This document shows, piece after piece, positions 4,523 to 49,849 of a DNA stretch of 64,000 nt. The DNA is taken from contig NZ_JAGQBB010000001.1 in NCBI RefSeq assembly GCF_024345415.1, forward strand, positions 124,001-188,000. Direction: 5' to 3'. Source of the stretch: Synechococcus sp. Tobar12-5m-g. GTDB taxonomy: Bacteria; Cyanobacteriota; Cyanobacteriia; PCC-6307; Cyanobiaceae. Under the pieces are notes generated by a model. That model had not been told where the DNA came from. It worked only from the letters and a program-made list of their open reading frames with translations, and ran no database searches. Position 1 is the first letter of the stretch; every line of letters starts with the position of its first letter. Both the position numbers and the translations under genes were made by a program.

Positions 4523-5507
4523 GGTCGGCCAGGGGAATGCCCCCCAGCCGCTCGATCTCCCGAACGCCGGTGGGGCTGGTCACGTTGATCTCGCTGAGGC
4601 GGCCATCGATCACATCGATGCCCACGAAGAACAGGCCGGCCTCCTGAAGGGCGGGGGCCAGCTCGGCGCAGATCACCCGCTCGACGGCCGTTAGCTCGCT
4701 GGCTTCCGGCGCGCCGCCCACGGCCAGGTTGCTTCGGAATTCTCCAGGAGCTGGCTTTCGGTTCACCGCGCCGAGCGGTTCGCCATCCACCAGCAGGATG
4801 CGCTTGTCGCCTGCGGTGACGGCCGGCAGGAACGCCTGCACCATCACCGGCAGCTGCTGCTGGTTGGTGACCAGTTCCAGCAGGGCCCGCAACCCCGGCG
4901 CGGCGGCATCGGTGCGCACCACCCCCTGGCCGGCGCGACCGCCCAGGGGCTTGAGCACCACGGCGCCGTGCAGGGCCGTGAAGGTGGCCAGTTGCTCCAC
5001 GTTGCTGGCCACCAGGGTGGGCGCCATCAGGTGGCTGAAGCGGAGGGAACCCAGCTTTTCGTTCCAGGCCAGCAGCGAGGCCGGCTTGTTGAGCACCCGC
5101 ACCCCCTGGCGCTCGGCCAGCTCCAGCAGCAAGGTGGCATAGAGAAAGGCCTCATCCACGGGCGGGTCCTTGCGCATCCACACCCGCGGGAAGTGCTTCA
5201 GGGGCAGCAGATGCGACTCACCCAGCTCCAGCCACGGCTCGGGCACCCGCCAACCGGACGGTGTGGGCTGGATGTCGGCGAGGGTGACAGGCTGGGCGCG
5301 CACCAAGGCGACAGGCCCTCTCTCCGGGGCAGACGACGACTGGCCCGCGACGGAGAGATCGGCCGGGGTGGCCACCCACACCTGTTGACCGGCCCGCTGG
5401 GCGGCCTGCATCAGGGCCACGCTGGAATCCTTGGCCGGCCGCAGCCGCTGGATCGGATCCACGATGAAGAGCTGGGACTCGAGGGCCTCGGCGGAGCCAA
5501 CCGCCAC
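4494..5507 (-). CDS. gshB: glutathione synthetase
   Basis: This is an ATP-grasp ligase that joins gamma-glutamylcysteine and glycine to make glutathione. The N-terminal [20 protein letters not shown] segment is the family start. [30 protein letters not shown] and the terminal [17 protein letters not shown] are the substrate-domain and ATP-grasp signatures. At 337 residues it has about 15-20 more at the N-terminus than the usual family length, so the true start may be slightly downstream of 5507. It follows grxC on the same strand with a 2 nt gap, which joins glutathione synthesis to glutaredoxin. Confidence 0.93.
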
Positions 5508-5509
5508 CG

Positions 5510-5785
5510 TCAGGCTCCCTGCAGCAGGGCGTCGAGCCGGCCGGCGCGCTCCAGGCCGTGGAGCTCATCGCAACCGCCGATGGCCAGATTATCGACAAAA
5601 ATCTGGGGAACGCTGGTGCGGCCCCCCGCCCGCTCGCTCATCGCGGCACGCGCCGCATTGTCGCCATCGATGGCGTACTCCTCGTAGCTCACCCCCTTGC
5701 GGTCGAGCAGGGCCTTGGCGCGGATGCAGAAGGGGCAGAAACGCCAGGTATAGATCTCGACCTTCGCCGCGGTGTTGGCTGCCAT
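5510..5785 (-). CDS. grxC: glutaredoxin 3-type
   Basis: This is a small dithiol glutaredoxin that reduces protein disulfides with glutathione. It has 91 residues from ATG at 5785 ([16 protein letters not shown]). The active site is CPFC, a variant of the common CPYC. The cis-proline TSVPQIF and the GGCDEL glutathione-binding turn are intact. Longer in-frame starts exist at 5812 and 5872 but would add non-conserved residues. It is immediately upstream of gshB, so supply and use of glutathione are likely co-transcribed. Confidence 0.9.
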
Positions 5786-5874
5786 CCCGCCGGTGCCTTG
5801 CAATCCATTCATCCTAGAAGCGGCCCGGCAACGGGCCCACTGGTAGCGTCGATCCCACTGATTCCGCCCCACCG

Positions 5875-7000
5875 GTGCTCGATCTCACCGACTTCAAACG
5901 CGACCTCTCCGAGCTCACCGACCGCCTGGGCCATGCCCAGGACTGTCTTTGACGTACCGGCCCTGAACGCCCGCCAGCAGGACCTGGAACAGCTGGCCTC
6001 CCAGAGCGGCTTCTGGGACAACCAGCAATGCGCGCAGAAACAGATGCGCCAGCTTGATGAGGTGAAGGCCCAGCTGGAACAACTGGGGGGCTGGCGGCAG
6101 GCGATTGAGGATGGCCAGGCCACCCTGGAGCTCTACGGCCTCGACCCCGACGAAGACCTGCTGGCCGAAGCCAACGACGGCCTGCAGAAGCTCAAGGCCG
6201 CCCTCGACCGCTGGGAGCTGGAACGGCTTCTGAGCGGCATCTACGACAAGGAGGGTGCCGTGATCTCGATCAACGCCGGCGCCGGCGGCACCGACGCCCA
6301 GGACTGGGCTCTGATGCTGATGCGAATGTATACCCGCTGGGCCGAGGACCACGGCATGAAGGTGTCCGTGGATGAACTCTCGGAAGGGGAGGAGGCGGGC
6401 ATCAAGAGCTGCACGATCGAGATCGACGGCCGCTACGCCTACGGCTACCTGCGCAACGAGAAGGGCACCCACCGGCTGGTGCGCATCTCGCCGTTCAACG
6501 CCAACGACAAGCGCCAGACCAGCTTCGCCGGCGTCGAGGTGATGCCCAAGCTCGACGAAGACGTCAAGCTCGACATCCCCGACAAGGACCTGGAGATCAC
6601 CACGTCCCGCTCCGGCGGCGCCGGCGGCCAGAACGTCAACAAGGTGGAAACGGCAGTGCGCATCCTGCACGTGCCCACCGGCCTGGCGGTTCGCTGCACC
6701 CAGGAGCGCTCCCAGCTCCAGAACAAGGAGAAGGCGATGGCGCTGCTGATGGCCAAGCTGATGGTGATCGCCCAGGAGCAGCGGGCCTCCGAGATCGCTG
6801 ACATCCGCGGCGACATGGTGGAGGCCGCCTGGGGCAACCAGATCCGCAATTACGTGTTCCACCCTTACCAGATGGTGAAGGATCTGCGCACGGCCGTGGA
6901 AACCACCGACGTGCAGGGGGTGATGGACGGCGACCTCGACCCGTTCATCCAGGCCCTGCTGCGCCAGGGTGTGGAGATCGCCGCCGATGGGGCCGCCTGA
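5875..7000 (+). CDS. prfB: peptide chain release factor 2, expressed by programmed +1 frameshift
   Basis: RF2 recognises UGA and UAA and triggers peptide release. The frame opens at GTG 5875 ([24 protein letters not shown]) and meets an in-frame TGA at 5950-5952. Reading resumes in the +1 frame as [12 protein letters not shown] and continues to 7000. The two parts total about 374 residues, the normal RF2 length. The main frame carries the RF2-type SPF tripeptide (VRISPFNAN) and the catalytic GGQ ([20 protein letters not shown]). A continuous frame that enters from 5558 is spurious before 5951. Expression is therefore likely to be autoregulated by RF2 level. Confidence 0.93.
5934..5953 (+). 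promoter_or_regulatory. RF2 autoregulatory +1 frameshift site
   Basis: The slippery sequence CTTTGAC occupies 5947-5953 and is preceded by an AGGA Shine-Dalgarno-like element about 4 nt upstream. This copies the classical prfB layout: SD-like stimulator, CUU in the P site and UGA-C in the A site. Slow termination at UGA when RF2 is scarce lets the ribosome slip one base and finish the protein. The sequence match is direct. Its function is inferred from the well-known prfB mechanism. Confidence 0.9.
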
Positions 7001-7017
7001 GCCCTGACCACTCCCTG

Positions 7018-7227
7018 ATGACTGACAGCAGCAGCCCCATTGATCAAGGCAGCGCCACGGCCACTGAGCCTGCGGCCAGCCCGCCGCCCAGCTTCACGAA
7101 GCTGGCGATGCGCAACATGGTGCGCAAGGGCCGCCAGAGCCTGGTTCACTTTGGCCTCACCGCCGTGGGTTTCAGCGTGGTGCTCTTTGTGCTGGCCTGG
7201 TTCGGCCGACCGAGCCTGCCCCAATGA
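7018..7227 (+). CDS. small single-pass membrane protein (DUF3285-like)
   Basis: This is a 69-residue protein with a polar Ser/Pro/Ala-rich N-terminus, a basic stretch (AMRNMVRKGRQSLVHF) and one C-terminal transmembrane helix (GLTAVGFSVVLFVLAWF). Size, layout and position between prfB and ybeY match a small conserved cyanobacterial family that I associate with DUF3285; no function is known. Its TGA stop overlaps the ybeY ATG as ATGA, so it is probably translated together with ybeY. Confidence 0.75.
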   Translation: MTDSSSPIDQGSATATEPAASPPPSFTKLAMRNMVRKGRQSLVHFGLTAVGFSVVLFVLAWFGRPSLPQ

Positions 7228-7790
7228 GCGCGCCGGTTCTCGATCTGTCCTTCACGGTGGAAGGGAGCCTGCACCCCTCCCTGCTGGGCGAAGCGGCGGC
7301 CTATGGCGATCCCCTCGCCGGGGTGGCTCTCTGGGAGGCGATTCTCAGCCGTTGGTTGATGGAGGTGGCCTCCGAGATGCCGGCCTCCCTGCGGGCGCCG
7401 TCCTACAGCCTGGGTCTCAATCTCTGCGGCGATGCCGAGATCGCCGTGTTGAATGCCGATTGGCGGCAGATTGAGGGGCCCACCGACGTGTTGGCCTTCG
7501 CCGCTGGTGACGACGGCATCGATGGGGCTCCGCCGATGCCGAGGCCCCATCCGAACGCCGACGGGCCGGGGGATGGTGATGAGGGAGAACCCCTGGAGCT
7601 GGGCGACATCGTGATCTCGTTGGAGACGGCCGCGCGTCAGGCCGCGGCGGCGGGCCTGGGCCTGGAGCGGGAGCTCACCTGGCTGGCCAGCCATGGCCTG
7701 CTTCACCTGCTGGGCTGGGATCACCCGACGGAGGCCCGCCTGGAGGCGATGCTGGCCCGCCAGGAGCAGCTGCTGACCTGTGCGCACTGA
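7224..7790 (+). CDS. ybeY: endoribonuclease YbeY
   Basis: This is a zinc-dependent endoribonuclease involved in 16S rRNA 3'-end maturation and ribosome quality control. The zinc-binding signature HxxxHxxxxxH is present as SHGLLHLLGWDH (His157, His161, His167). The preceding NADWRQIEGPTDVLAF is the family's conserved strand. Its 188 residues include an acidic, Gly/Pro-rich insertion around residues 95-125. The gene overlaps the small membrane protein upstream by 4 nt, and dgkA follows after 65 nt. Confidence 0.93.
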   Translation: MSAPVLDLSFTVEGSLHPSLLGEAAAYGDPLAGVALWEAILSRWLMEVASEMPASLRAPSYSLGLNLCGDAEIAVLNADWRQIEGPTDVLAFAAGDDGIDGAPPMPRPHPNADGPGDGDEGEPLELGDIVISLETAARQAAAAGLGLERELTWLASHGLLHLLGWDHPTEARLEAMLARQEQLLTCAH

Positions 7791-7855
7791 CGGACAATCA
7801 GGGCAGGACCGGAAACCGGCGGTAATCTCGGACGCAGGCTCGAAAGCAAGTCCGA

Positions 7856-8305
7856 ATGACATCGCTTTCCCCGTCCAATCCCGTCCCCTTGGCCAACGAC
7901 ATCCGCCCCCGGGGGCGTCGCGGCGGTTCCTGGCGCGTGGCCGGCGACCTTCCCCTCAGCCTTCGCTATGCGGCCCAGGGCCTGGCTCACGGCTTTCTCA
8001 CCCAACGCAATTTCCGCATCCATGCTGTCGTGGGTGTGCTCGTGTTCAGCCTGGGGATATGGCTGCGTCTGAGCCCCGACCGCCTGGCGGTGCTGGTTCT
8101 CACCGTTGCCGCCGTGCTGGTGTTGGAGCTGATCAACACGGCGATCGAGTCGGTGGTGGATCTGGCCATCGGCCGCCGCTTCCACCCCTTGGCACGCATC
8201 GCCAAGGACTGCGCGGCGGCGGCGGTGCTGGTGGCCGCCCTCGCCTCGTTGGCGATTGCCCTTCTCCTGCTTCTGCCGCCGCTGCTGGTGGCGCTGGGCC
8301 TTTGA
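7856..8305 (+). CDS. dgkA: diacylglycerol/undecaprenol kinase family protein
   Basis: This is a small integral-membrane lipid kinase that phosphorylates diacylglycerol or undecaprenol. It has 149 residues with about 35 extra polar residues at the N-terminus before the core. The signature ELINTAIESVVDLAIGRR lies between transmembrane helices, and three to four helices are visible. The ybeY-dgkA-trpG order is common in cyanobacteria. Which lipid it uses cannot be decided from the sequence; Gram-positive relatives use undecaprenol. Confidence 0.88.
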   Translation: MTSLSPSNPVPLANDIRPRGRRGGSWRVAGDLPLSLRYAAQGLAHGFLTQRNFRIHAVVGVLVFSLGIWLRLSPDRLAVLVLTVAAVLVLELINTAIESVVDLAIGRRFHPLARIAKDCAAAAVLVAALASLAIALLLLLPPLLVALGL

Positions 8306-40484: not shown

Positions 40485-41447
40485 ATGTCCTTTACGATTG
40501 AGTCCGCTTTCAATATTTTTCCCGAAACGCTGGCCGCGGATGTGGTGCCAGCCACGATTGCCCGCTTTAACCAACTGGGGGTCGAAGACAAATTGGCGCT
40601 GATCTGGTTTGCCTACCTGGAAATGGGAAAGACGCTCTCAATTGCGACCCCAGACCCTGTGAATATGCAATTTGCCAGCAGCACACTTAGCCAGATCAAG
40701 CTGATGAATTTTGATGAGCAGTCGCAACTCATGCATGACCTGGCCAGTCGGACGGATCGACCCATTTGTCGCATCTACGCCACCTGGTCAGTGAATATCA
40801 AACTCGGCTTTTGGTACCAATTGGGAAAGTGGATGGAAGAAGGGATTGTTACCCCCATTCCTCAGGGTTACCAACTTTCAGCTAACTCCTCGGCTGTCCT
40901 CCAAGCAATTCGGGTGGTCGATACTGGTCAACAAATCACGATTCTCCGAAATGCAGTGGTCGATATGGGCTTTGAACCCGCGCAGCTGGGGAGCTACAGC
41001 TCGGTGGCAGAACCTTTGGTCCCACCCCAGGACAAGGCCAAGCGCACCCCAATCGCTTCGATTCCTGGTGTTGAACACACAGTGATTCTGGAGTACATGG
41101 ACAACCTGAATGCCAATGACTTTGATGCTCTGGTAAACCTTTTTGCTTCGGATGGTGCCCTGCAACCCCCCTTCCAGCGACCGATTGTCGGTCAGGAAGC
41201 CCTGCTTCGCTTTTTCCGGGAGGATTGCCAGAATTTAACATTGTTACCTGAGCGGGGCATCACGGAGCCCGACGAAGATGGTTACACCCGGATCAAGGTC
41301 ACCGGCAAGGTGCAAACTCCCTGGTTTGGCCAGGATGTGGGCATGAACGTTGCCTGGCGATTCCTCCTCAATCCAGAGAACAAGATTTTCGTTGTTGCCA
41401 TTGATTTACTCGCTTCTGCCAAGGAGTTGCTGAATCTGGCTCCTTAG
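40485..41447 (+). CDS. ocp: orange carotenoid protein
   Basis: This is a soluble, blue-light-activated carotenoid protein that quenches phycobilisome excitation. It is full length at 320 residues, with the N-terminal helical and C-terminal NTF2-like domains. Comparison with Synechocystis OCP from memory places Tyr44, Asn104, Trp110 and Arg155 at the same numbers, with C-terminal Tyr204 and Trp291 in place of Tyr201 and Trp288. The residue expected to pair with Arg155 (Glu244 there) is Asp247 here. GC is clearly lower than in neighbours, which suggests transfer. No fluorescence recovery protein or ketolase gene is adjacent. Confidence 0.95.
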   Translation: MSFTIESAFNIFPETLAADVVPATIARFNQLGVEDKLALIWFAYLEMGKTLSIATPDPVNMQFASSTLSQIKLMNFDEQSQLMHDLASRTDRPICRIYATWSVNIKLGFWYQLGKWMEEGIVTPIPQGYQLSANSSAVLQAIRVVDTGQQITILRNAVVDMGFEPAQLGSYSSVAEPLVPPQDKAKRTPIASIPGVEHTVILEYMDNLNANDFDALVNLFASDGALQPPFQRPIVGQEALLRFFREDCQNLTLLPERGITEPDEDGYTRIKVTGKVQTPWFGQDVGMNVAWRFLLNPENKIFVVAIDLLASAKELLNLAP

Positions 41448-41920
41448 GCTCTCTTCCTGCTGCAGGTCTTTGAGAAGGTGAGCGGTGAATGGTCGCTGAT
41501 GGGCACCGGTCACGATCTCCTCCAGCCGTGAAGGCTTGTCCGAAGGAGTAGCTGTTCAGGGCCGCCACGGTAGTGGCCTGACGGCCCAGGCAAAACCTTC
41601 AAAGCCGTTGAAAGGAAAGCAGTTCAGCTCCATATTGTTCACTGAAGCTGGCTTGGAGTTGCCAGAGCTCCAGCAAGGATTTCCAGATCCTGCGGAGTGG
41701 TCGATGTCAGTGCAACTGCCGATCGCCCGTACATGGGCCTCAACGGCCAACTGCTGGCTCGGAGGGAAGGGATTAGCTCATGGATCGGCTGAATACACCA
41801 TTAGACCTATAGACGAAGAGGCCTTGACGGTCAACGATGAAACCAGCTCATTGAAGGGCTTGCCTGGGACAGGGGCTGGCCTTGGGGCTGCCCGCTGGCC
41901 CAGAGGCCCTGGGCTCGCGG
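41448..41920. other. gap downstream of the orange carotenoid protein gene
   Basis: No confident gene. On the minus strand a short frame ending about 41389 reads RLEEIVTGAHQRPFTAHLL and LQQEESLRSQIQQLLG, with a GGAGGA motif ahead of a GTG. It is preceded by a stop and overlaps the end of the neighbouring gene, so it is more likely a remnant. Nothing here resembles the fluorescence recovery protein. Confidence 0.4.
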
Positions 41921-42106
41921 CTAAACCGCTTCGAGAACAGCCTCGCTGAGCTGGTGCTGGGGAACGGCAAACGGGGGTGAGCCCTGCTTGGAGAGGGGCC
42001 AGCGACGGACCCAGCAGCGGTCCCCGTCATCGTCGACGCTGAGGATTTGATAGATGGAGTCATCTTTGCCGGAGAGCCGAACAAAGGTGCCTTGCTGAAG
42101 CGTCAT
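41921..42106 (-). CDS. small SH3-like conserved protein
   Basis: This is a 61-residue protein: MTLQQGTFVRLSGKDD, then YQILSVDDDGDRCWVRRWPLS and a short tail. The alternating strands with VRLSG and CWVRRWP suggest a small beta-barrel (SH3-like) fold, seen in short cyanobacterial proteins of unknown function. A GAGGAA ribosome-binding site lies 5-10 nt ahead of the ATG at 42106. I know of no function. Confidence 0.65.
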   Translation of the reverse strand: MTLQQGTFVRLSGKDDSIYQILSVDDDGDRCWVRRWPLSKQGSPPFAVPQHQLSEAVLEAV

Positions 42107-42819
42107 GGTGAAGTTCCTCAGGAGAGGACAGTGGTGGATGTCGCCCAGGGATCCGGGCTTGATCGGCCTTCAACGTAACGGAGTATTTCGGTGAATTGAC
42201 AGGCAGTCATGGATTGGTCATCAGGTTGAGCGGTTGCTGACCAAGCCGGGTCCAAAGGCTGCCCGCGGCTGCCCTCGGGCTGGCATGAATACCCATTGCC
42301 AGCCAAAGGACGTGGGCCGACACTGTCATCATTGAACCGGAGGCTCCCTTGACGGACGACACTCCCCCCAACCAGGTGTCAGGAGCGCGCTGACGTTCTG
42401 GACCCTGCTCCAACAGTCTCGTTGAATCACCTGGTTTCCGGATTTCCATTTCTGGACAACGTTGTTGCCGATGCATCGTTTCAGGTGCCCCCGGCTCATC
42501 GAAACCAATTCTTGAACGTCAATGGCCCCAGGCGCCAACGCCAGCAAGCTCCGCCCCACAACCCAACACCCCCTCCCAGACCCGTCGCTTGAACCTTCGG
42601 CAGCCCCGCTCCCACGGCGCAGCCACCCCTAGACGCAAAGCCCGGTGACCTCGTCATCGGGCTTTGTTGTGCTGGGCATGGGCCATCGGGTCGGCCGTGG
42701 GGGCGTCGAAGCGGCTGGACCCGACGGATTCCAGCTACAACAGATCAGAAGAACCTCAAGCAGGCAACAAGGGCGCGCCCAAGCGGAACCAGCCACGGAT
42801 CGACCCTTGCATTCCCTTG
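42107..42819. other. gene-free stretch before the polyketide cluster
   Basis: About 710 bases hold no convincing coding frame. They contain a strong hairpin at 42637-42665. The three-gene cluster promoter is expected between the hairpin and 42820. Confidence 0.45.
42637..42665. terminator. terminator-like hairpin
   Basis: AAAGCCCG (42637-42644) pairs with CGGGCTTT (42658-42665), and an inner TGAC/GTCA pair extends the stem around a CTC loop. The A/T ends give short T runs on both strands, so it could act in either direction. It insulates the polyketide cluster from upstream sequence. Confidence 0.7.
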
Positions 42820-43956
42820 ATGCCCACTGTTCTGGAAGCGATCGCGGTCGCCACGCCACCGTTCAGGCGATCCCAGCAGCAGCTGGCCACGTTCATGGCC
42901 AGGATCGAGGGGGTTCCTGGCGGTCTGCGGGGCCGCATCGCCGATATCTTCAGCCGTTCGGGAATCGAGCAGCGCTACAGCTGCCTGGCTGATTTTGGCC
43001 TGGAGGCGGACGCCTTCGGCTTTTTCCCCAGCAACTGGGCGCTCTCTCCACCGCCCAGCACCGCAGCACGCAACAGGGCGTATCGCGCCTGTGCCCCTCC
43101 GCTCGCTGAGGCTGTGGCCCAGCAGGCCCTGGAGCAAGCCGCCTGCGCGGCCTCGGAGATCACCCATCTCCTGGTGGTGAGTTGCACGGGCTTCTTCGCC
43201 CCCGGACTCGACGTTCTCCTGATTCAGCGTCTGGGGTTGCCGGTGGCCACGGAGCGAACCCTGATCGGCTTCATGGGCTGCAACGCGGCGTTCCATGGCC
43301 TGAAACTGGCCCACGGGATCTGTCAGGCCAGCGGCCATGCCGGGGCCGAGGGCCAGGGCATCGTGAAGGTGCTGATGGTGTGCGTCGAGCTCTGCTCCCT
43401 GCACATCCAGATTCCTACCAGCCTGGAGGACGTGGTGACGAATGCACTGTTCGGGGATGGGGCCGCGGCCGTCGTGCTCTCGCCCGGAGATCCTCGCCCT
43501 GGCCAGCTTGCCTACCTTGATAGCGCCTGCACGATCGCCGCACACACGCTTGAGGCGATGGACTGGGAGATTGGCGACACCGGCTTTCTGATGCGTTTGT
43601 CGGCCACTGTTCCGCAACTGATCCAGCAGACCCTGCCTGATTGTCTTGGGCCGTGGCTCCGCCGCCATGGCCTGGGCCGCGACGACCTGGCGTTCTGGGC
43701 GGTCCATCCCGGCGGTCGCCTGATCCTCGATCAGGTTCAGAAGGACCTGGGGCTCTCGCCCATGGCCCTCCAAGACTCCTACGACGTTCTACGGGAGTTC
43801 GGCAACATGAGTTCCCCCACCATCCTGTTCATCCTCAAGCGCTGGATGGAGGCCGCTTCGGCCAGGCCGGGCCAGGCAGCAGGGAAGGGGCTGGCCCTGG
43901 GCTTCGGCCCTGGACTCTCGATCGAAGGCGCCCTGTTCGCCCACGCGGAGGGATGA
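42820..43956 (+). CDS. type III polyketide synthase
   Basis: This is a chalcone/stilbene-synthase-fold enzyme that extends an acyl starter with malonyl-CoA and cyclises the product. It has 378 residues from ATG at 42820 (MPTVLEAIAVATPP). The catalytic triad is Cys122 (VVSCTGFFAPGLD), His296 (WAVHPGGR) and Asn329 (EFGNMSSPT). GFMGCNAAFHGLK and NALFGDGAAAVVL are family motifs. It overlaps the methyltransferase gene by 4 nt. With the two downstream genes it matches the alkylresorcinol (hierridin-type) cluster known from Cyanobium. Confidence 0.94.
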   Translation: MPTVLEAIAVATPPFRRSQQQLATFMARIEGVPGGLRGRIADIFSRSGIEQRYSCLADFGLEADAFGFFPSNWALSPPPSTAARNRAYRACAPPLAEAVAQQALEQAACAASEITHLLVVSCTGFFAPGLDVLLIQRLGLPVATERTLIGFMGCNAAFHGLKLAHGICQASGHAGAEGQGIVKVLMVCVELCSLHIQIPTSLEDVVTNALFGDGAAAVVLSPGDPRPGQLAYLDSACTIAAHTLEAMDWEIGDTGFLMRLSATVPQLIQQTLPDCLGPWLRRHGLGRDDLAFWAVHPGGRLILDQVQKDLGLSPMALQDSYDVLREFGNMSSPTILFILKRWMEAASARPGQAAGKGLALGFGPGLSIEGALFAHAEG

Positions 43957-44741
43957 CACCCATGGACGTGAAGCTCAGGCTGTTTCCCTCCTTCCAGTCG
44001 CGCAGCGAAGAGGACGAGCTGATGGACGATTTCTCCATCACCGATCAGCGGCTCACCGGCGCCCTGGAACAGCTGCGGGTGGTGAACCAGGTTCTCGGTG
44101 GCTACAGCGCGCCGATGAAAGCGTTGAGGCCCCTGCTGCTGGAACGCCACAACGAGCCGATTCGCATTCTTGATCTGGGAACCGGCATCGCCGATTTCCC
44201 GGAATACCTGGTGCGCTGGGCTGCCAGCCAATCACCACCTTGTGCCATCAAAGTGGTGGCCGTCGATGCCAACCCGGCCACCGTGGCCCACGCCCGCCGG
44301 TCGCTGGCACAACGGCTGCCGGAGGAGTTGCAGGGGGCCATCGACGTTCAGGTGGCCGATGCGCTGGCCCTGCCCTACGGCGATGGCTCCTTCGATGTGG
44401 TGATCGCCTCGATGTTCCTGCACCATTTCGCTCACCAAAAAGCGGTGACGGTGGTGCAAGCGATGCAGCGCATCTCCCGCCGGGGAATCATCATCAACGA
44501 CCTGCAGCGCCATCCGCTCGCCTACTACGGCATCGCCGGGCTGACCCGCCTGCTGAGGGCCTCGGAAATGATGCAGAACGATGGTCCCCTTTCTGTGTTG
44601 CGGGGCTTTCAGGCCCAGGAACTCCGGAGCATCGCGGCGGACGCCGGGCTGCGGGAGGTCTCGATTCAGTGGTGCTGGGCGTTTCGTTGGCTGTTGACCA
44701 ACCTGGCTGTGGAGCACCCCGCGATGAACGCCCTCGCTTGA
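43953..44741 (+). CDS. class I SAM-dependent methyltransferase
   Basis: This is a 262-residue methyltransferase. Motif I is RILDLGTGIADFPEYL, motif II has VVAVDANPATVAHARR, and FDVVIASMFLHHF follows. The N-terminal DDFSITDQRLTGALEQLRVVN is a substrate-side extension. It likely methylates a ring hydroxyl of the polyketide product. It starts within the PKS stop codon (ATGA), and the next gene begins 3 nt after its stop. An ATG 9 nt downstream is an alternative start. Confidence 0.9.
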   Translation: MTPMDVKLRLFPSFQSRSEEDELMDDFSITDQRLTGALEQLRVVNQVLGGYSAPMKALRPLLLERHNEPIRILDLGTGIADFPEYLVRWAASQSPPCAIKVVAVDANPATVAHARRSLAQRLPEELQGAIDVQVADALALPYGDGSFDVVIASMFLHHFAHQKAVTVVQAMQRISRRGIIINDLQRHPLAYYGIAGLTRLLRASEMMQNDGPLSVLRGFQAQELRSIAADAGLREVSIQWCWAFRWLLTNLAVEHPAMNALA

Positions 44742-44743
44742 CC

Positions 44744-45880
44744 ATGCACGACGCGATCATCATCGGGGCCGGCCTGGCCGGTTGCGGCCTGGCCATCCAG
44801 CTGGCCCAGCAGGGCCAGCGGGTGCTGCTGCTGGAACAACAGCGCTATCCCACCCACAAACTCTGCGGTGAATTCCTCTCCACAGAGGTGACGGCGATCT
44901 TCGAGCGCCTCGGCATCCTTGAAGCGGTTCAGGCCGCCGGTGCGGTGCCGATTCGCCGGGCCAGCCTCACCACCTGCACGGGGGAATCGTTCCGCACCCA
45001 CCTGCCGGGGACGGCGCTGGGGCTCAGCCGCTATGCGTTGGATCGGATCCTCTGGCAGCGGGCCCTGGAGGTGGGGGCCACCTGCCTCGACCGCACGCCC
45101 GTCACAGCGATCGATGGCAACCTGGCCGAGGGTTTCACGGTGTCCACGGCCGCAGGGTTCCACCGGGCGCGGCTGGCATTCGGGGCCTACGGCAAGTGCT
45201 CACGGCTGGATCGGCAGCGGGGCCGCCGGTTCGCGGCCCGTCCCAATCCGTTCGTGGCGGTGAAGGGGCACTACACGGGCCTCAGCCTGGCGGAAACGGT
45301 GGAGCTCCATGCCTTTCCCGGCGGCTACTGCGGGCTTTCAGAGATCGAAGCGGGCGTGATCAACGTCTGCTGGATCGGCCATGGGGGCCTGATGCGATCC
45401 GCTGCCGCGGGGCTGCCCCCAACGGAGCCCTTCTCCAGGGCCGTGCTGCGCCGCAACTCCTCTCTGGCCAGCCGTTTGGAGGCCATGACCCCCGTGGCCG
45501 GAGCCTCGCAGGCCCTGGGGCAGATCAGCTTCGCCTTGAAGGGCACCTTCGACGACGACCTCTGGATGATCGGCGACACGGCCGGCATGATCGCCCCCCT
45601 CTGTGGCGATGGCATGGCGATGGCCCTGGGGTCCGCCGACCTGGCCCTGCCGATTGCCCTGGCCTTTCTGGGGGGCCACATCGAGCCGAAGCTCGTGAAA
45701 GGCCGCTACCGTCAGGGCTGGAACCGGGCCTTCCGAAGGCGGCTGCAGCTGGGCCGCTGCCTGCAGCAGGGTCTCCTCCATCCCGCGGTCGCGCGGCTGG
45801 CGGTGGGGCTTTGCGGGAGCCGCCCAGCCCTCGGTGATGCCTTGATTCGCGCCACCCGGGGGGCCGAGCGGGCCCGATGA
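44744..45880 (+). CDS. FAD-dependent oxidoreductase (geranylgeranyl reductase family)
   Basis: This is a 378-residue flavoprotein. The N-terminal dinucleotide-binding motif is AIIIGAGLAGCGLAIQLAQQG, followed by LLEQQRYPTHKLCGEF. The second FAD motif is MIGDTAGMIAPLCGDGMAMAL. Its family includes hydroxylases and reductases acting on lipophilic aromatic or isoprenoid substrates. In the cluster it probably hydroxylates the alkylresorcinol ring. The reaction is inferred from context. Confidence 0.88.
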   Translation: MHDAIIIGAGLAGCGLAIQLAQQGQRVLLLEQQRYPTHKLCGEFLSTEVTAIFERLGILEAVQAAGAVPIRRASLTTCTGESFRTHLPGTALGLSRYALDRILWQRALEVGATCLDRTPVTAIDGNLAEGFTVSTAAGFHRARLAFGAYGKCSRLDRQRGRRFAARPNPFVAVKGHYTGLSLAETVELHAFPGGYCGLSEIEAGVINVCWIGHGGLMRSAAAGLPPTEPFSRAVLRRNSSLASRLEAMTPVAGASQALGQISFALKGTFDDDLWMIGDTAGMIAPLCGDGMAMALGSADLALPIALAFLGGHIEPKLVKGRYRQGWNRAFRRRLQLGRCLQQGLLHPAVARLAVGLCGSRPALGDALIRATRGAERAR

Positions 45881-45902: not shown

Positions 45903-47090
45903 ATGCTTCGCCTGATCCACACGGCCGACTGGCAGATCGGCAAGCCCTACGGCAAGGTCGCCGATCCACGCAAACGGTTCCTGCTCCAGGAGGAACGGCT
46001 CCGGGCCATCGAGCGGATCGCCGCGGTGGTGCGGCAGCGGCAAGCCCGTCTGGTGCTGGTGGCCGGCGACCTGTTCGACTCCCCCACCGTGGCCCCGACC
46101 GCCGTGCTCGAGGTGCTTGAAGCGATCGGCGCCATGGCGGTGCCGGTGCTGGTGATCCCCGGCAACCACGACCATGGCGCCCCCGGCACGGTGTGGCATC
46201 GCGATGACTTCCAGCGAGAGCAGGCCCGCCGCGCCCCCAACCTGCAGCTGCTGCTCCACCGCGCTCCCTGGGTGCGGGAGGAGCTCGTGATCTTGCCCTG
46301 CCCGCTGTTGCGCCAGGCCGACAGCGCCGATCCGACCGCCTGGATCGCCAGCCTTGACTGGTCGGCCCTGCCGGCGGACCGGCCGCGCCTCGTGCTCGCC
46401 CATGGCGGCATCCAGGGATTTGGTGCCCGCGACTACGACGCCGACGGCGAGGCACGGGGCGGCGCCCACAACAAGCTGGATCTGGCCCGCCTGCCCGATC
46501 TGGAAATCGACTACATCGCCCTCGGCGATTGGCACAACCTCAAGGCGGTGTCTGCCAAGGCCTGGTACCCCGGCACACCCGAACCGGATCGCTTCGACCA
46601 GGGCGAGGGCAACCAGCGGGGCCAGGTGCTCCAGGTGGAGCTGGAACGGGGCGCCCCGCCGCTGGTGGAGGCCATCCCCACCGGCCGGCTGGGCTGGCAC
46701 CAGCGCAGCGTTCGCTTCCACTCCGACGACGATCTGGAGCGACTCGCGATCGAGCTGGAGCGCCTGATCGGCGGGCGGGTGTCCCAGGACCTGCTCCAAC
46801 TCGAGGTGAGCGGCCAGCTCAGCCTCGGCGCCCACCAGCGCTACCAGGCCCTGATGGCGGGGCTTGAGGATCAGTTGCTGCGCCTCAAGCGCAAGGGCCA
46901 CTGCGACACCGCACCCCGGGCCGAGGAGCTGGCCCAGCTGGTGGAGCGCCCGGGGGACCCCCTGATCGCGGGGGTGGCAGCCCAGCTGCAGCGGCGGCTC
47001 GATCAACAGGAACAGGCCGGCGACGAGGCTTCAGCCCGCCTCACCCGCCTGGCCCTCGGCGAGCTGTTCGGTTTCGCCACACGCCCCTGA
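45903..47090 (+). CDS. SbcD/Mre11-like DNA repair exonuclease
   Basis: This is a calcineurin-type nuclease of 395 residues. Metal motifs are HTADWQIGK, VAGDLFDSP, IPGNHDHG, LAHGGIQ and ALGDWHN. The first motif has Gln where the common form has His (DxH), a variant whose effect is unknown. A capping/C-terminal region follows with weak similarity. It is coupled to the Rad50-like gene downstream, 32 nt away across a tandem repeat, so the two proteins probably form a nuclease-ATPase complex. Confidence 0.88.
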   Translation: MLRLIHTADWQIGKPYGKVADPRKRFLLQEERLRAIERIAAVVRQRQARLVLVAGDLFDSPTVAPTAVLEVLEAIGAMAVPVLVIPGNHDHGAPGTVWHRDDFQREQARRAPNLQLLLHRAPWVREELVILPCPLLRQADSADPTAWIASLDWSALPADRPRLVLAHGGIQGFGARDYDADGEARGGAHNKLDLARLPDLEIDYIALGDWHNLKAVSAKAWYPGTPEPDRFDQGEGNQRGQVLQVELERGAPPLVEAIPTGRLGWHQRSVRFHSDDDLERLAIELERLIGGRVSQDLLQLEVSGQLSLGAHQRYQALMAGLEDQLLRLKRKGHCDTAPRAEELAQLVERPGDPLIAGVAAQLQRRLDQQEQAGDEASARLTRLALGELFGFATRP

Positions 47091-47125
47091 GCCAATGCCC
47101 CTGAGCTGATGCCCCTTAGCTGATG
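47084..47125 (+). repeat. three 14-bp tandem repeats spanning the sbcD-like/rad50-like junction
   Basis: Units are CCCCTGAGCCAATG (47084-47097), CCCCTGAGCTGATG (47098-47111) and CCCCTTAGCTGATG (47112-47125). The first contains the upstream gene's stop. ATG codons at 47095 and 47109 each open a 4-codon frame (Met-Pro-Leu-Ser) that ends in a TGA overlapping the next ATG. The third unit ends in the true start at 47123. This is direct from the sequence. Confidence 0.9.
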
Positions 47126-49849
47126 CGCCTGATCCACTGCCGCCTGCGCAACGTGCGCGTCCACGCCGAGCTGAGCGTGACCTTCGGCCCGGGCATCACC
47201 CTGGTCGGCGGACCGAACGAAACGGGCAAGAGCACCCTGGTGGAAGCCCTGCACCGCGCCCTGTTCCTGAAGGCCACCGCCAGCGGAGAACCGGTTCAGG
47301 CCCTGCGCTCCCGGCTCCATGCCGGCCATCCTGAAGTGGAGATCGGCTTCGAGGCCGGCGGCGAACGCTGGACCGTGCTGAAGCGGTTCAGTGGTGCCAG
47401 TGGCACGATCAGCCTCAGCCCCGCTGGTGGCGTTCAGCTTTCCGGCCCCGCCGCCGAGGAGCGCCTCGCCCAGCTTCTGGGCTTCAGCGAGAGCCTGGGA
47501 AGCAAGCAGGCGCAGTCGGTCTTGCCCAGCCGCTGGGCCCACCTCTGGGTGATGCAGGGCCGCTCCGGTGACGACCTGCTGGGCCGCGGCGGCGCCAGTT
47601 ACGAGCTGCCGGTGCTGCTCTCCTTGCTGGAGCGGGGCGGTGGGGCGGCCCTGCAATCCGCCCTCGATCAGGCCGTGGTCGCCCGGATCGATGCGGAACT
47701 TGAAACCACCTTCACCGGCAAACGGGGCGACCTGCGGCGCAACTCCGAGCTCTGGAACGCCCGTCAGACCCTGGAGCAGGCCCAGCGCCAGCGGCTGCTG
47801 GCCGCAGATCGGCTGGCGGACTACGACGCCGCCAACGAGGAACTCGTCGAGCTGGCCGAGCGGCTCGAGCGGCTTCAGACCATCGAGCTGCCAGCCCTGA
47901 AATCGCGCCAGGACCTGCTGCGAGCCCTGGCTCTCCAGGCGAGCGAACGCAAGCCGCTGAGCCTGGAACTCCAGGCCCTCGAGGCTGCCCAGAAGGAACT
48001 GTGCGAGCTGAACGGAGCGATCGCCTCCGGCTCGGAGCGCCTCCAGGCAACGCTGCGAAGCCAGGCCGCCGCCGAGGCCACGATCACGGCGGCGGCCACG
48101 GAGCTGGCGGCGCAGCAAGCGAATCGGGAGGCGCTGGAGAGCCAGCGTCAGGTGTTGGAGCGCCGGGACCAGCAGCTGCAACGGCTGATCACCAGGGCCC
48201 GCTGCCGCACCGACCGCGACCGGGCCGCAGCGGCCCTCGCGGAGATTGAAGCCCAGGCCGCTGCCCTGGCGGAGCTGGAGCGTCGCCACCAGGACCTGCC
48301 GATCGCCAATGCCGCCCATGTGCAACGCCTGCGGGAGCTGGAGGCGGCCCAGCGGGAGGCCGGCATCCGCCAGCAGGCCCTGGCCACGGGGGTGGAGCTG
48401 GTCCGGGCCGATCAGCCGGTGTGGCTGGATGGCGAACCGCTCCAGCCCGGGGAGGAGCGCCAGCTCGGGGCCGTCGTTGAGCTGCGGGTGGGGGCGGGCG
48501 TGGCCGTGCGGATCAGCCCCGGGGGCGGCGAGGCCCTCGCCGATTGCCGCGCCGCTTTGGCGGAGGCCACGGCTCGCCTCGCCAAGGGCTATGCCTTTCT
48601 CGGCGTGGAGAGCGTGGCAGAGGCCGAAGCCCAGGCCCGGCGGCGGGAGGCGATCGAGCAACAACTGCTGGCCCTGCGCGCCACCGATCGGCGCCAGGAG
48701 CGCCTCGCCCTGGGGCGCCAGCTCGACGACTGCGTCGCCACGCTCAGCGCGATCGAAGCCGAGCTGGCCATGGTGGAGGCCAGCGAACCAGGCGAAGGAC
48801 TGGACGACCCGCAAGCCCTGGATCCATTGCGCAGCCAGTTACGGCAGAACCTGGCAGGGCTCAACATCGCGGTGCTGGCCGCCGATCAGCAACTCCGGAG
48901 CGCCGGCGCTGAACTCACCATCGCCAGGGACAGCGCGGCCAGGCAGGCCCAGGCCGTGGCCGCCCTCGAGGCCGAACTCCGCGGCAAAGGGGAACGGCAG
49001 CGGGTCCTGCGTGAGGCCCACGGCGATCCCCAGTTCCTGGCCACCAGCCTGGAGGGGCTGCACCAGCGCTGGCAGCGCTGTTCCGCCGCTGTGGAGGCGC
49101 TCGAGCGGCAGCTGGCTCCCCTTTCGGACGGCCCGATCGACGCCCAGCTCCAAGACCTGGCGGAGCAGATCCAGAGGCTTGAGCTGGACTGTCAGGGGCT
49201 GATCAGCCGCCGAGGGGCAGCCCGTCAGCGCTGCGACACGATCAGCAGCGACGATCCCCATGCGGCGCTGGAGCATGGGGAGGCGGTGCTGGAGTTGGCC
49301 AAGGCGGCCCATGACGCCCTCCAGAGCCGCAGCGAGGCAATCCAGTTGCTGAAGCAGCTGTTCAACGAGGCCCAGTCCGATCTCTCAACGCGCTATAGCG
49401 AACCGCTGGCGGGCGCGATCAGCGATTATCTCCAGCCGCTGCTTGGCGGAGGGCAGTCCTGCCGGATGCATTACGACCGGGCCAACGGATTCTGTGGTCT
49501 GCAACTGCGCCGGGGCCGGGAGTTCTACGGCTTTGGCGAACTGAGCGGCGGCATGAAGGAACAGCTGGGCCTGGCCCTGCGTCTCTCGATGGCGGATGTG
49601 CTCAAGGCTGCCCATGGGGGCTGCTTGCCACTTCTGTTCGATGACGCCTTCACCCACTCCGATTCAGAGCGGATCAGGGTGATCGAGGACATGGTGCGAA
49701 CGGCGGTGGCCCGCGGATTGCAGGTGATCCTGTTCACCTGCAATCCGCGGGCCTATGGCTGGCTTGGTGCAGAAACCGTGCAGCTCGAAGCAGTCCAAAC
49801 TGCCGAGATTCCAACCTCTCCTGGTGCTGCGTCTCCCGCCCAGGACTAG
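47123..49849 (+). CDS. Rad50/SbcC-like coiled-coil ATPase without a zinc hook
   Basis: This is a 908-residue AAA ATPase. Walker A (GGPNETGKST, residues 29-38) is at the N-terminus. Long coiled coils fill the middle. LSGGMKEQLGLALRLSM and LPLLFDDAFTHSD (signature and Walker B) are at the C-terminus. The central CxxC zinc hook of Rad50 is absent. In its place, residues about 420-470 (VWLDGEPLQPGEERQL, VAVRISPGGGEA) form a probable beta-rich globular insert. It works with the upstream nuclease, probably in DNA-end processing. Confidence 0.88.
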   Translation: MRLIHCRLRNVRVHAELSVTFGPGITLVGGPNETGKSTLVEALHRALFLKATASGEPVQALRSRLHAGHPEVEIGFEAGGERWTVLKRFSGASGTISLSPAGGVQLSGPAAEERLAQLLGFSESLGSKQAQSVLPSRWAHLWVMQGRSGDDLLGRGGASYELPVLLSLLERGGGAALQSALDQAVVARIDAELETTFTGKRGDLRRNSELWNARQTLEQAQRQRLLAADRLADYDAANEELVELAERLERLQTIELPALKSRQDLLRALALQASERKPLSLELQALEAAQKELCELNGAIASGSERLQATLRSQAAAEATITAAATELAAQQANREALESQRQVLERRDQQLQRLITRARCRTDRDRAAAALAEIEAQAAALAELERRHQDLPIANAAHVQRLRELEAAQREAGIRQQALATGVELVRADQPVWLDGEPLQPGEERQLGAVVELRVGAGVAVRISPGGGEALADCRAALAEATARLAKGYAFLGVESVAEAEAQARRREAIEQQLLALRATDRRQERLALGRQLDDCVATLSAIEAELAMVEASEPGEGLDDPQALDPLRSQLRQNLAGLNIAVLAADQQLRSAGAELTIARDSAARQAQAVAALEAELRGKGERQRVLREAHGDPQFLATSLEGLHQRWQRCSAAVEALERQLAPLSDGPIDAQLQDLAEQIQRLELDCQGLISRRGAARQRCDTISSDDPHAALEHGEAVLELAKAAHDALQSRSEAIQLLKQLFNEAQSDLSTRYSEPLAGAISDYLQPLLGGGQSCRMHYDRANGFCGLQLRRGREFYGFGELSGGMKEQLGLALRLSMADVLKAAHGGCLPLLFDDAFTHSDSERIRVIEDMVRTAVARGLQVILFTCNPRAYGWLGAETVQLEAVQTAEIPTSPGAASPAQD

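Follow-up and report, generated by a model that had tools for sequence, protein, structure and literature searches.

Three forward genes in the window (the whole stretch of DNA that was analysed, 64,000 nucleotides) form one operon encoding, in this order, a type III polyketide synthase (PKS), a SAM-dependent methyltransferase and an FAD-dependent oxidoreductase. The features of the locus are as follows:

42637 to 42665, no strand assigned: terminator-like hairpin 154 nt upstream of the PKS start (folding energy, exact inverted repeat)
42820 to 43956, forward strand: probable alkylresorcinol synthase, a HidC-like type III polyketide synthase of the PKS-first lineage, 378 aa (Pfam, active-site residues, trees)
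43953 to 44741, forward strand: class I SAM-dependent methyltransferase (HidA-like), 262 aa (Pfam, structure model, fold neighbours, tree)
44744 to 45880, forward strand: FAD-dependent oxidoreductase (HidB-like), probable ring hydroxylase, 378 aa (Pfam, structure model, fold, tree)

Each of the three proteins matches Pfam families at scores above the curated cut-offs, and the genes for PKS, methyltransferase and oxidoreductase are found together again in other genomes, so that their grouping is not due to chance. Open reading frames, Pfam and this recurrence confirm the three-gene cluster that an earlier note had placed here from the letters of the DNA. The stop-start coupling described in that note applies to the PKS/methyltransferase junction, a 4-nt ATGA overlap that is kept in Synechococcus SynAce01 and in the MAG bin.51, but not to the methyltransferase/oxidoreductase junction, which is a 2-nt gap with no overlap. 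The methyltransferase may, however, start at 43962 instead of 43953, at an in-frame ATG 9 nt further on for which a GGAGG is better spaced. The hairpin AAAGCCCGGTGACCTCGTCATCGGGCTTT at 42637-42665 (-27 kcal/mol, z -4.9) is an exact inverted repeat, AAAGCCC...GGGCTTT; the pattern was absent from shuffled versions of the window, and the genome contains six sites of this type. The hairpin, which had been proposed to insulate the operon, is therefore real, but insulation is only plausible, and unproven, since it lies 154 nt from the PKS start and lacks the five T in eight of a simple terminator rule. On the downstream side no insulation is visible and the transcript may run on, because a gene for SbcD starts 22 nt past the oxidoreductase stop. 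Around the operon, a simple scan found no sigma-70-like promoter and no Rfam elements were detected. The GC content of the operon is 67.0%, equal to that of the window, so that its base composition does not look foreign, and no match pointing to viral carriage of the PKS was obtained.

The PKS matches PF00195 (70.9 bits) and PF02797 (91.1 bits) against a cut-off of 27, and these chalcone/stilbene synthase domains, together with a Cys-His-Asn catalytic triad (Cys154, His296 and Asn329), mark it as a type III enzyme. Phe211 corresponds to the gatekeeper Phe215 of chalcone synthase (CHS). Residues were numbered against a CHS segment; an independent check is provided by Trp249 and Met258, which are nine residues apart, as are position 284 and Met293 of ArsC. 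In the Azotobacter enzymes ArsB and ArsC, Trp leads to resorcinols and Gly to pyrones (ArsB Trp281/ArsC Gly284), with Met nine residues on (PMC6274091, a review). The window PKS has the alkylresorcinol synthase residues, with Trp at the ArsB Trp281 position and Met nine on, and both are common to nearly all PKSs compared, including the usual hid-type PKSs of the family. We infer, with good support from these residues, that the PKS product is a resorcinol. Long-chain alkylpyrones, modified as such by the tailoring genes, are an improbable product: by sequence, the second-ranked solved structure is that of the pyrone synthase PKS18, but Trp occupies the position that is Gly in ArsC, with Met nine on, and the tailoring genes are of the aromatic-ring type. 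In the trees, which included no characterised pyrone or chalcone synthase, the PKS clusters with PKSs of the same operon kind, so that, as far as this comparison reaches, it does not group with such synthases. The Trp/Met pair and the grouping by operon type thus support the earlier proposal of an alkylresorcinol-type PKS accompanied by a putative ring hydroxylase and a methyltransferase.

The oxidoreductase matches PF01494 and PF01266 above cut-off. It is GG-red-SF/QhpG-like, under both cut-offs, and reaches the cut-off of no NCBIfam model, hydroxylases included; for the geranylgeranyl reductase family TIGR02032 it scores 91.5 bits against a cut-off of 158.8. The structure model (pLDDT 85) matches flavin halogenases and PHBH-type hydroxylases over its whole length (Z 29-34), the best matches being the halogenases ChlB4, PltA, Bmp2 and Mpy16, with PHBH-type hydroxylases scoring nearly as high. 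These top matches, and the chlorination of hierridin C by an unknown enzyme (PMC8086630), would suit chlorination of the resorcinol by a flavin-dependent halogenase. Nevertheless, this role was rejected despite the halogenase-type best folds and is very improbable indeed, since the WxWxIP halogenase motif is missing in all 45 operon oxidoreductases examined (that of the window and 44 relatives) and the hydroxylases are nearly equal in score. In six Bacteroidota operons (L058, L059, L067, L069, L083 and L095), the gene after the PKS-methyltransferase pair encodes a ~540-aa aromatic monooxygenase of PRK06184-like type, a type established by scanning one member and assigned to the five others by tree grouping; other Bacteroidota operons (L062, L064) retain the oxidoreductase type of the window. 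The swapping of an aromatic monooxygenase into the same slot argues for ring hydroxylation, and the window oxidoreductase is a probable ring hydroxylase, a phenol-hydroxylase-like flavoenzyme by its modelled fold. When a Gimesia oxidoreductase was co-expressed, no hydroxylation was observed (PMC10896814).

The methyltransferase has matches to PF13649 and PF08241 above cut-off and is PRK06202-like, but under the cut-off of that model. The fold neighbours of its structure model (pLDDT 90) comprise both C- and O-methyltransferases: the top match is the C-methyltransferase Coq5, CouO and NovO are also listed, and O-methyltransferases such as DnrK appear as well. A reading of O-methylation from the fold was dropped because of this mixture, and the two modes cannot be told apart from sequence. 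Of the tailoring logic put forward in the earlier note, in which resorcinol formation, ring hydroxylation and O-methylation lead to a methoxylated long-chain alkylphenol or quinone, the resorcinol-type PKS, the putative hydroxylase and the methyltransferase stand, but the fold does not support O-methylation over C-methylation. It is quite possible, if somewhat the less expected outcome, that the enzyme C-methylates the ring, the product then being a methylated alkyl-hydroquinone or quinone with a plastoquinone-like head group and not a methoxylated phenol; the best fold match and the listing of CouO and NovO speak for this, as does a related Gimesia enzyme that appears to C-methylate, whereas HidA O-methylates (PMC10896814) and DnrK-like enzymes are among the neighbours.

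The operon is likely to represent a PKS-first lineage (hidC-hidA-hidB order) that makes a tailored alkylresorcinol. Shown directly are the presence of the three genes and their grouping, which is conserved, the residues of the active site, and a lineage distinct from the usual hid-type operon of the family. The PKS would load a long-chain acyl thioester, add three malonyl units and, as the active-site residues and relatives suggest, close the tetraketide by C2-C7 aldol condensation to give a 5-alkylresorcinol, the ring of which would be hydroxylated by the FAD enzyme and methylated by the methyltransferase. The predicted product is a hierridin-like methoxylated or methylated alkyl-hydroquinone, which could oxidise to a quinone. 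A Planctomycetota operon, likened here by description, has the same gene content, and PKSs taken from planctomycete operons that share both tailoring genes produced pentadecyl- and heptadecylresorcinols (C15/C17) in C. glutamicum (PMC10896814); the gene order of that operon is as in hidABC and unlike that of the window.

In hidABC of Cyanobium sp. LEGE 06113, a type III PKS, a methyltransferase and an FAD oxidoreductase likewise lie in one operon (Costa et al. 2019, as described in PMC8086630 and PMC10896814), and HidC and the window PKS are alike in having Met at the CHS Phe265 position. The LEGE 06113 order is methyltransferase-oxidoreductase-PKS (PMC8086630), whereas the PKS comes first in the window. 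Both gene orders have already been described, A-B-C being the commoner, so the window operon belongs to a known kind; its PKS-methyltransferase-oxidoreductase order is that of cyanobacterial hidC-hidA-hidB hierridin-like clusters, which are without an assigned product (Larsen et al. 2021, PMC8086630). The window shares the gene content of hidABC but not its order, and its PKS lies outside the clade of the hid-type PKSs of the family. The srsA-srsB-srsC genes of Streptomyces griseus encode a PKS, a methyltransferase and a flavin hydroxylase in that order and make phenolic lipids, an arrangement that is, by description, window-like. SrsA belongs to a different type III PKS clade, 2.22 (PMC8086630).

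A PKS hit was obtained in 69 of 201 sampled genomes of the family, and in the surroundings that were read, where the neighbours were on hand, the methyltransferase-oxidoreductase-PKS order and low identity were seen in all but the window and two genomes of the same genus. No second type III PKS or usual-order hid copy was found in the window genome. Operons of family members in which the order is that published for hidABC stand in for the LEGE 06113 hid genes; their proteins share ~41-46% (PKS), 33% (methyltransferase) and 27% (oxidoreductase) identity with the window proteins, and the corresponding values for SynAce01 are 66, 72 and 69%. In all three trees the window proteins group with those of SynAce01, bin.51 and Thermosynechococcaceae MS004, and then with cyanobacteria outside the family, in which the PKS is first wherever the whole operon is on hand. 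A single clade of window-type and family PKSs was rejected (AU test, p-AU 0.005); joining the whole cyanobacterial PKS set of the window with that of the family was not (p-AU 0.094). The suggested identity with the Cyanobium hid cluster is thus not supported, in view of the gene order, the clade in all three trees and the low identities. An ordinary, vertically inherited picocyanobacterial hidABC that was only rearranged, and that makes hierridin B itself, would have the same three gene families, the gatekeeper residues of the usual hid-type PKSs of the family and a host whose GTDB family includes many carriers, all of which are seen. That explanation is nonetheless unlikely, given the rejected monophyly of the family PKSs, the placing of all three proteins in another clade and the presence of a usual-order operon at a different locus in the same-genus genome G083. 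Judged by its trees and gene order, the window operon is of a lineage separate from, and rarer than, the usual marine picocyanobacterial hierridin operon, and the simplest reading of its relationships is that it reached the genus as a unit from another cyanobacterial lineage, or shares an origin with one.

Within the genus, three of the four genomes carry the operon at the same locus. In SynAce01 and bin.51, genes for AbrB-like, DCC1-like and GGACT proteins lie a few kb past the operon, as in the window, and from these shared downstream genes the operon looks to have been inherited at one place. In the window the gene for SbcD and a downstream SbcC-like gene (45903-49849) separate the operon from the AbrB-like gene; in SynAce01 and bin.51 the homologues of SbcD (~50% identity) and of the SbcC-like gene sit elsewhere. 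The fourth genome, G083, has its usual-order hid copy at positions 5208-8227 of locus L034, with an in-frame TAA in the PKS and an oxidoreductase frame that looks broken, which may reflect decay or an assembly fault.

In 16 of the 69 PKS-bearing family genomes, from six genera, a gene for an orange carotenoid protein (OCP) and the PKS gene are less than 10 kb apart, and this nearness is seen with both operon lineages (the window; loci L042 and L157-L163). In gene maps, which covered at least one genome of each genus, the neighbours differ between genera, so that OCP and the PKS probably came to lie together on separate occasions. For six of 17 genera, an estimate under uniform placement comes to ~1e-9, but it takes no account of relatedness or of integration hot spots and was calculated only once the pattern had been noticed. 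OCP was not mentioned in the hierridin papers found by literature search. It is a speculative, rather doubtful proposal that hierridin-type lipids are functionally tied to OCP photoprotection in picocyanobacteria, the two operon lineages having settled beside OCP for a shared light or oxidative stress response. Within its genus, only the window genome has OCP beside the operon, SynAce01 and bin.51 having none there. At 52%, the GC content of the window OCP gene (40485-41447) is below the 67% of the window, and the genome has a second OCP copy; with the lack of an OCP gene at this place in SynAce01 and bin.51, these features suggest that the window copy may be a recent arrival. No gene is recognisable in the ~1.2 kb that separates OCP from the hairpin (41448-42636), and the small open reading frames scanned between OCP and the PKS gave no Pfam match.

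For annotation, these findings caution that gene content alone is insufficient to call a cluster a Cyanobium-type hierridin operon. That the family holds a second operon lineage of separate derivation, in a genus with one member whose only copy is of the usual order and looks broken, suggests a benefit from the product, and the repeated nearness of OCP offers a testable lead to what that benefit may be.
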